Origin: Desulfococcaceae bacterium
Lineage (GTDB): Bacteria; Desulfobacterota; Desulfobacteria; Desulfobacterales; Desulfosalsimonadaceae
DNA: 50,075 nt
Assembly (NCBI GenBank): GCA_030145385.1
Contig: JAQYVU010000023.1
Coordinates: forward strand, 1 to 50,075
Direction of reading: 5' to 3'
The notes under the pieces are model-generated. The model was not told the origin of the DNA. It was given only the letters and a program-made list of their open reading frames with translations, and ran no database searches. This document shows, in pieces, positions 19,556 to 20,580 of this stretch (position 1 is the stretch's first letter; each line of letters begins with the position of its first letter). The translations under genes and the position numbers were made by a program.

Positions 19556-19804
19556 CTATACAACAAATAACAGCAGCAATGCGACAACCAGAGAATAAAT
19601 ACCGGTTGATTCGGAAACCGCCTGTCCGACGAGCATGGTTCGAGTCAGAAGGCCAGCTTCCTGCGGGCTGCGTCCGATGGCTTCACAAGCTTTTCCGGCG
19701 GCAAATCCTTCACCAATTCCGGGTCCAATCGCACCAAGTCCCATTGCCAAACCTGCACCTAACAAAGCAAATGCTCTAACAATATCAGCACCTAAGATTT
19801 CCAT
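19556..19804 (-). CDS. atpE: F0 ATP synthase subunit c, single hairpin, Na+-type motif
   Basis: The 82-residue two-helix proteolipid carries E32 ([11 protein letters not shown]) and V63, E65, S66, T67 and Y70 ([13 protein letters not shown]). These occupy the numbered positions of the Na+ site in Ilyobacter and Fusobacterium c rings. The E32+E65 pair corresponds to the two-carboxylate form described for Fusobacterium nucleatum. The likely coupling ion is therefore Na+. It lies directly downstream of a three-hairpin c gene, so the ring may be mixed. Confidence 0.93.
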
Positions 19805-19854
19805 AATTTTTCTCCTTATGTTTTATAGTAATTAACTGAGTTTATATTTTTATT

Positions 19855-20580
19855 TTAAATGTTTAACAATAATAAAAGCGCGACCACCAGCGCATAAATT
19901 CCGGTGGATTCGGAAACCGCCTGTCCCACCAGCATGCTGCGGGTCATCAGCCCAAGTGTTAAAGGATTTCGGGCAACCGCTGACACGGCATTGCCTGCGG
20001 CAGCACCTTCACCGATGCCGGGTCCGATTCCGCCGAATCCCATGCACAGACCTGCGCCCAGCATGCTAAAGGCTGGCACGATAGCCATTTCCATGGGGAG
20101 TTGCTTGTAGAGCAGCAAAAGGGAAATCAAAAATCCGTAAATTGCTGTGGACTGGGCAACACCGGCACCGATCAGCATGAGCGTATTCAGCTGTCCGGAT
20201 ACTTTCGGCTGGCGACCGATTCCCTCGCAGGCATTTCCAGCAGGAAGTCCGGCGCCGATTCCGCAGCCAATGGCCGAAAGCCCCATGGATAAACCGGCAC
20301 CCATATAGGCCCATGCGGTAAGAACCGACTTGCCTTCCATCGGGCTGAACAGAAGCAGCATGGCAATGACAAGGCCGAATATACCGGCTGTTTCCGCAAC
20401 TGCCTGACCGACGAGCATGGTTTTAAGTATTTCACCTACCAGGTTGGGCCGAAATGAGAGCGTCTCATTCGCTTTCCCGGCAGTGTATCCTTCTCCGATA
20501 GCTGCACCGATGGCGGCAAACCCCACTGAAAGGCCTGCTCCAAGGACAGATGCAGCTTGAATCCATTCAATACCTGTCAT
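19855..20580 (-). CDS. atpE: Triplicated F0 ATP synthase subunit c (three hairpins)
   Basis: The 241-residue protein is three c hairpins in tandem (about 1-82, 83-160, 161-241), six membrane helices. Hairpin 1 keeps E30 and E63 ([11 protein letters not shown]). Hairpin 3 keeps E191, V222, E224, S225, T226 and Y229. Hairpin 2 has A110 instead of the first glutamate and Q143 instead of the essential carboxylate ([11 protein letters not shown]). One third of its sites should thus not carry an ion. It starts one base before the end of atpB. Acetobacterium woodii has a related case, a double-hairpin c1 with one site in a mixed ring. Confidence 0.95.

Follow-up and report, generated by a model that had tools for sequence, protein, structure and literature searches.

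The window analysed here is a stretch of 50,075 nucleotides from a Desulfococcaceae bacterium, and its minus strand carries, from position 21969 down to 18461, an Fo gene cluster in the order Z-I-a-c1-c2-b'-b. The cluster begins with AtpZ (ATPase_gene1; 21643..21969, 108 aa; PF09527, 46.1 bits with a cut-off of 26.6) and AtpI (ATP-synt_I; 21267..21656, 129 aa; PF03899, 38.2 bits, cut-off 25.1), followed by an F-type a subunit of 224 aa (20582..21256) with its conserved arginine, R167, in the motif RLFGN. One base past the stop codon of a starts c1 (19855..20580), a c subunit of 241 aa with three hairpins (PF00137, E 5.9e-49, three ATP-synt_C stretches). Behind it comes c2 (19556..19804), a single-hairpin c subunit of 82 aa preceded by a strong ribosome-binding site, AAGGAG (19805..19824; estimated duplex energy -9.3, versus -4.0 for c1). 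The cluster closes with a short b, b' (19066..19521, 151 aa), and a long b (18461..19069, 202 aa), whose C-terminal tail is like that of b in the genome's only F1 operon. No genes for alpha, beta, gamma or delta were found within the window.

Upstream of the Fo operon, also on the minus strand, lies a response regulator (22180..23307) with a DUF4388-like stretch that scores just below the cut-off (24.3 bits, cut-off 25). A homologue (E <1e-80) is found in 21 of 40 related loci (L041-L080), and the protein may be a regulator of Fo. Elsewhere in the window, genes for CODH/acetyl-CoA synthase, pterin-binding and RACo-type proteins occupy 29015-39728 on the plus strand; these are the Wood-Ljungdahl genes, which the initial annotation had mentioned for the organism. 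Two proteins with an FeS motif and DUF3786 are encoded close together (1201-2004 and 3025-3831), and at 17213-17990 a Gp49-like protein (PF05973) is followed by a small protein without a Pfam match, which by sequence looks like a HigB-type toxin-antitoxin pair.

Ion sites of the two c subunits

The initial annotation had described c1 as three hairpins with a dead ion site in the middle one, and c2 as a normal subunit with the Na+ site. Renumbering and the PF00137 match confirm the former, and the latter is present in the sequence. Hairpins 1 (E30/E63) and 3 (E191/E224) have both carboxylates and are live, while in hairpin 2 (A110/Q143) both are missing and the site is dead. In c2, E32, V63, E65, S66, T67 and Y70 make up the full two-carboxylate Na+ motif. 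E32 and E65 occur in every live site of the window, that is, in hairpins 1 and 3 and in c2, and on the basis of these residues the live sites are assigned to the Na+-binding motif type. Hairpin 1 has A65 and F68 at the positions of T67 and Y70 of the motif, which goes with the dead hairpin next in the chain. The closest solved relatives of c2 are Na+ F-type c subunits (4bem, 3zk1, 1yce). An AlphaFold model of c1 (pLDDT 91.4, pTM 0.86) has three helical hairpins, and its best PDB match is the c1 of Acetobacterium woodii (4bem_J, chain J of 4BEM; E 2.5e-8, rmsd 1.5).

That c1 could be a decaying duplicate or a functionless assembly artefact, the latter a caveat of the initial annotation, has a negligible chance of being true. 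The mutual protein identity of the three hairpins is only 41-48%, thus an assembly duplication is excluded. Orthologues of the same anatomy, with three hairpins and a dead middle one, are present in six other genomes at 70-95% identity (L041-L046), and the dead hairpin is under purifying selection (dN/dS 0.03-0.06 in six pairwise comparisons among four genomes). Nothing in favour of decay or artefact was found for the window; masked bases interrupt the record of one relative (L114).

The arrangement resembles that of A. woodii (PDB 4BEM), where a fused c1 gene likewise precedes a single c gene, the Na+ motif is present and the same rule for T67 and Y70, described below, holds. In the passage of PMC7911925 on the c1 of A. 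woodii and C. aceticum, the first hairpin is live and the next is dead by E to Q, and a live hairpin followed by a dead one is common to the c1 of the window and of A. woodii. As far as sequence goes, the window therefore shares with A. woodii a multi-hairpin c beside a single-hairpin c in an Fo operon, the live-then-dead order and the Na+ motif. There are also differences. The c1 of A. woodii has exactly two hairpins, whereas that of the window has three and those of its relatives two to six, up to five of them dead. The A. woodii operon includes F1, whereas the window cluster is without F1 and its genome has a second Fo, labelled H+-type; in the wider phylum, 11 of 33 loci do have F1 in the same operon. 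Finally, the live sites of the window family are two-carboxylate sites with E32 (205 of 213 live hairpins in the fused c of relatives), and position 32 is lost along with the dead site, being E, D or Q in 0 of 310 dead hairpins versus 210 of 213 live ones.

The passage of PMC3692424 on the two-carboxylate Na+ c ring of Fusobacterium nucleatum (PDB 3ZK1) lists E32, E65, V63, S66, T67 and Y70, the same residues as in the live sites of the window, but that ring is a homomeric c11 of single hairpins. Hairpin fusion, often with site loss, is described in part of PMC2359735 for A/V-type c/K subunits (Enterococcus hirae K, the Methanocaldococcus triple hairpin and the 13 hairpins of Methanopyrus). 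The likeness to these lies in fusion with site loss, whereas the a, b', b and c of the window are F-type. Membership of c1 in V-type K was rejected (90.4 bits with a cut-off of 211, PRK06271; partners F-type a and b). N-ATPases have a Na+-type c, extra small membrane proteins and an F1 of their own. The window cluster shares the first two features but is without F1, and an N-ATPase assignment was rejected on the alternate-F1Fo c model TIGR03322, where c1 scores 129.2 bits (narrowly short) and c2 63.8 with a cut-off of 130.85, and on the lack of F1 genes. A plasmid search with c1 returned four records, each with 23-31% query coverage and less than 60% identity, and nothing new.

Distribution and hairpin patterns of the fused c subunits

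With c1 as query, some c subunit was matched in 57 of 60 genomes, the window's own included, and a fused c of the c1 family is present in 41 of the 59 other genomes of this set of relatives. This runs against the initial annotation, in which such a subunit appeared uncommon. From 39 of the 41 genomes (all except G024 and G030) 40 regions were fetched, two of them from G037 (L041-L080), and their fused proteins have three to six hairpins. Of the 291 genomes of the class, 126 give a match to a six-hairpin query at E 1e-20, and in 124 the match reaches 1e-35 or better. The two weak matches, in G497 and G674, may be to a single c only, and internal stop codons were seen in G465 and G666. The remaining 165 of the 291 genomes are without a match at E 1e-20, and the fused c is thus a common but patchy trait across the class. 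At the level of the phylum, the a subunit as query matches 43 of 395 genomes at E 1e-60 (own included); 33 of these 43 loci were fetched through this search and four further ones were already part of the set (the others being G112, G208, G251, G285, G375 and G387). Within the window's genus, three hairpins are found in four genomes (own included) and four hairpins in five, with no match in one and a weak match in one. In the best 80 of 506 related stretches from named genomes, the group names are mostly Desulfobacterales, Desulfobacteraceae, Desulfosarcina or Deltaproteobacteria. Most of the genomes are metagenome assemblies, the only single-contig ones among those closely studied being G045, G080, G336 and G385.

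Four further c genes with a single hairpin stand alone, with no a subunit found nearby (L214:5944-6306, L215:4395-4757, L216:7369-7815 and L217:591-965); their products have an extended N-terminus, and the site pattern ends in MESIY. The genes of L214 and L215 have rnfC within about 4 kb, in G091 and G215.

We considered 154 loci (the window and L041-L193), of which 132 are distinct by their a subunit and 130 of these have a complete fused c; L059 (six hairpins, EQQQQQ, with E for a live and Q for a dead hairpin) was dropped because its a gene lies beyond the contig, and L047 and L189 were left out for a fused c truncated at a contig end. Four hairpins are the most frequent number (90 of 130), followed by three (17), five (14), six (6) and two (3; L126, L173 and L177). 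One of those counted as three-hairpin forms, L114 (3658-4600), is interrupted by masked bases; its count is unreliable and the gene probably has four hairpins. Hairpin 1 is live in all 130; the last hairpin is live in some and dead in others. The most frequent patterns are EQQE and EQQQ, then EQE, EQEE and EQQQQ, and the extreme is EQQQQQ, in five loci; dead sites thus reach up to five of six hairpins, beside a live single-hairpin c. At the other end, both hairpins of the two-hairpin L177 are live. All 127 complete single c genes are live; where no complete one is present, the locus runs into a contig end or, for L114, into masked bases. Cultured, named members of the family include Desulfonema magnum (EQE), Desulfosarcina alkanivorans (EQQE), Desulfosarcina cetonica (EQEE) and Desulfatitalea alkaliphila (EQQQQ). 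In G048 (L051:8131-11958) the fused c gene is last, after b rather than directly after a, and the long b of D. cetonica (L140:9501-10100) is in two frames, possibly through a frameshift in the assembly.

The state of a hairpin is reflected in the one that precedes it. According to the part of PMC2359735 on Na+ rings, one subunit contributes E65 and Q32 and the adjacent one V63 and S66. In our set, the presence of T67/Y70 in a hairpin goes with the state of the following hairpin, and not with its own, in 372 of 393 internal hairpins: with both residues present the next hairpin is live in 63 cases and dead in 1, and without them it is live in 20 and dead in 309. Hairpins at the chain end carry the pair in 130 of 130 cases, 59 of these being dead themselves. 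In alignments, the c1 of A. woodii, from another phylum, agrees, with AETSGIF in live hairpin 1 before a dead one and AQTTGIY in dead hairpin 2 before c2. The raw counts are weakened by the kinship of the sequences, and a phylogenetically independent test on the a-subunit tree has only six pairs on supported branches (mostly 5 for, 0 against and 1 tie; median p 0.06); a weaker test on an inner hairpin of four-hairpin forms gives on average 2.3 for, 0 against and 3.7 ties. The exceptions are 20 of 83 live hairpins that follow a hairpin without T67/Y70, for example in D. magnum and D. alkanivorans (L090:7679-8410, L094:7679-8650 and others), and these sites may be weakened. As T67/Y70 track the next hairpin, we take chain order to correspond to ring order, with a live hairpin beyond the chain end; the covariation is as expected if the hairpins are neighbours within a single ring.

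One F1 and two Fo modules

Three observations go beyond the initial annotation: the cluster is without F1, it is a second Fo beside a canonical-type one, and it belongs to the series just described of up to six hairpins with up to five dead. The window's genome (5.24 Mb in 209 contigs, 97% complete, 4.2% contamination) has one F1 operon, b'-b-delta-alpha-gamma-beta-epsilon, on contig C55. The other Fo, Z-I-a-c, is on contig C112, and its c has the pattern Q32, M63, E65, S66, L67 and Y70. We label it H+-type since T67 is replaced by L; L67 is present in the canonical-type c of 15 of 15 genomes examined. As assembled, the genome holds one alpha/beta pair, two Fo modules and four b-type genes over the cut-off, two with F1 and two in the window cluster. 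A dedicated second F1 was looked for in this genome and none was found: the other PF00006 matches, on C101 and C68, appear to be Rho-like, and one weak match (20.6 bits, under the cut-off) appears to be of ABC type.

It is conceivable, although very unlikely in our judgement, that the F1-less Fo has a soluble partner other than F1, or none at all, and serves for instance as a Na+ conduit. Such a role would fit the absence of alpha, beta, gamma and delta near 41 loci, namely the window and the fetched flanks of L041-L080, where some contigs end within a few kb. Against it, in 11 of 33 wider-phylum loci the same Fo lies directly upstream of delta, followed by alpha-gamma-beta where the contig continues (L189 ends too early). 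The Fo also has its own b'/b stator, and the tail of the window's b matches the b of the C55 operon with a score above that of 2000 of 2000 shuffles. The tail match recurs in G336 and G385 and is weaker in G045, where 22 of 2000 shuffles reach the score. Furthermore, the a subunit is strongly conserved (mean column identity 79% over 38 aligned sequences), and the c-ring loop arginine and proline, presumably the F1-facing residues as known from E. coli work, are mostly kept. In dead hairpins the arginine is kept in 287 of 313 and the proline in 264 of 313, and in live hairpins of fused c in 177 and 150 of 215; the single c has R in 61, K in 64 and P in 126 of 128. This loop signature in fused c is no stronger than expected for any F-type c.

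Docking of the window Fo on a shared F1, our preferred reading, is inferred from gene content. The F1-linked lineages bear on this. In G080 (one contig), G091, G215, G232 and G153, no F-type beta other than the Fo-linked one matches at E 1e-60, and there is one b'-b pair over the cut-off together with a separate H+-type Z-I-a-c. With one b'-b pair and one F1, the two a/c modules would share stalk and F1, if both work. Among the 41 genomes with fused forms, a beta at about 85-99% identity to the window genome's own is found in 39 (in two pieces in G042); of the other two, both incomplete, G011 is without beta and G030 has a distant match only. A second beta at 49-52% identity, which we read as N-ATPase-like, is present in four fused-form genomes (G007, G045, G048 and G059). 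In the single-contig genomes G045, G336 and G385 there is likewise another beta (50-52%) that might in principle work with the fused-c Fo; no such beta was found in the window's genome. Canonical-type a and the a of the fused-c Fo are both found in all of 61 genomes searched except G012.

RnfC scores over the cut-off in the window's genome, and 10 of the 15 genomes searched have such a match; this is compatible with a Na+ economy, though no proof of one. In the pertinent part of PMC5109826, Desulfococcus multivorans is argued to rely on Na+, with two Rnf complexes and six putative sodium/sulfate symporter genes. The section of PMC13343851 on Desulfatiglandales reports two to four atpE copies in clade B, NaphS2 and D. 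anilini and mostly one in clade A; in that section ion specificity is left unresolved and fused hairpins are unmentioned.

Ring make-up and working direction

The relative dose of the two c subunits can be approached through their ribosome-binding sites, a rough proxy for stoichiometry. The fused c starts at a median of 3 nt past the stop codon of a, and the mean strength of its site (-4.2) is close to that of a (-4.3), versus -10.3 for the single c. The single c has the stronger site in 123 of 126 loci and the reverse holds in 3 of 126, one of which, L041, probably has its start placed too far downstream by the script. A weak site for the fused c and a strong one for the single c point to about one fused c per ring. 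In PDB 4BEM there is one c1 chain and there are nine c2 chains. This composition, the best match of the c1 model to 4BEM chain J and the residue covariation make an A. woodii-like mixed ring, as put forward in the initial annotation, the best reading. That c1 and c2 share one ring, and likewise the ring size, the ratio of one to many and Na+ as the ion, are what we infer from these comparisons.

The chain ends, which always carry T67 and Y70 as a live follower needs, would also fit an alternation of c1 with c2, and it could be that several fused c alternate with single c in each ring, the evenly spread blanks giving a true low gear as in V-ATPases. We regard this as quite unlikely: the start of the fused gene is weak and a-like in contrast to the stronger single c, and 4BEM contains nine c2 chains but a single c1 chain.

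Returning to the mixed ring with about one fused c, we propose, and hold to be moderately probable, that the window cluster encodes a complete second Fo motor, Na+-coupled and without an F1 of its own. Its rotor would be a hybrid ring of about one c1, contributing two live hairpins and one blank, and several c2. It would dock on the F1 encoded on contig C55, with contacts made by a b'/b stalk of its own and by the conserved loops of the c ring, and there it would be the alternative to the a/c module of H+ type on contig C112. For a ring of 11 hairpins with one c1, one blank would lower the Na+/ATP ratio slightly, to 3.33 versus 3.67; an EQQQQQ ring with one fused c would come to 2.0 on the same ring size. 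Eleven is the hairpin number of all Na+ F-type rings named in the relevant part of PMC3692424.

The same arithmetic gives the gap that such a fused c would leave between live sites in an 11-hairpin ring: 65 degrees for EQE, the pattern of the window, 98 for EQQE, 131 for EQQQ, 164 for EQQQQ and 196 for EQQQQQ. From EQQQ on, the gap of 131 to 196 degrees exceeds one 120-degree step of F1; ATP could push the ring over such a gap, but ions would be unable to power synthesis across it, and a plain gear-ratio benefit would fail. The lower ion-to-ATP ratio expected by the initial annotation is hence plausible for the window, with its one dead site, and cannot be a full explanation in those relatives where the dead arc of a ring with 11 hairpins and a single fused c would be larger than the F1 step. 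Given the assumed ring size behind these angles, a gear-ratio benefit is doubtful as the sole reading for EQQQ and longer forms. As blank sites favour pumping over synthesis, we lean towards a Na+ pump fed by ATP as the working direction.

Taken to its limit, this leads to a rotary diode, in which one fused c per ring forms an unbroken dead arc: synthesis would stall at subunit a, F1 hydrolysis would drive the ring across, and the motor would be an irreversible Na+ pump, stricter with a longer fused c. Beyond the angles, at least 23 changes of hairpin number on the a-subunit tree speak for it (the F1 link changes twice; a quick tree, with long-branch warnings and the L114 miscount), as does the canonical-type a, a partner for another motor, in 60 of 61 genomes searched. 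We nevertheless think it unlikely. In G080, G091, G215 and others the fused-c Fo adjoins the only F1, which equally fits a synthase; A. woodii, with one dead hairpin, makes ATP according to the title of Fritz and Mueller 2007; the window's c1 has only one dead hairpin; and the angle argument rests on an assumed ring size and copy number.

A wider version combines these elements, and we put it forward as possible but rather doubtful. One F1 would serve two interchangeable Fo, an H+ one for synthesis and a Na+ one with a blank run, b'/b being shared in the F1-linked lineages so that only a and the rotor are swapped. A blank arc of more than 120 degrees would then be the diode, through which ATP drives Na+ out and the reverse stalls, its length set by evolution adding or removing blanks.

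Part of the findings on fused c may already be in print. A 2015 review abstract by Brandt and Mueller reportedly counts twelve species in which a single operon encodes one c of F-type and one of V-type. In the portions of the open-access literature covered, no F-type c with three or more hairpins and no F1-less Fo of the window kind was found.

How the ion-to-ATP ratio evolves is a long-standing question that has been argued mostly from fixed ring sizes and from the two-hairpin c of V-ATPases and A. woodii. The family described here offers a natural series in which the number of blank hairpins goes from one to five while the Fo clusters are otherwise alike, some of them from cultured organisms, and this makes the gear-ratio idea testable; the angle arithmetic predicts that it fails for the longest forms. 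Two Fo modules on one F1 would, if true, be an unusual switch between H+ and Na+ energetics.
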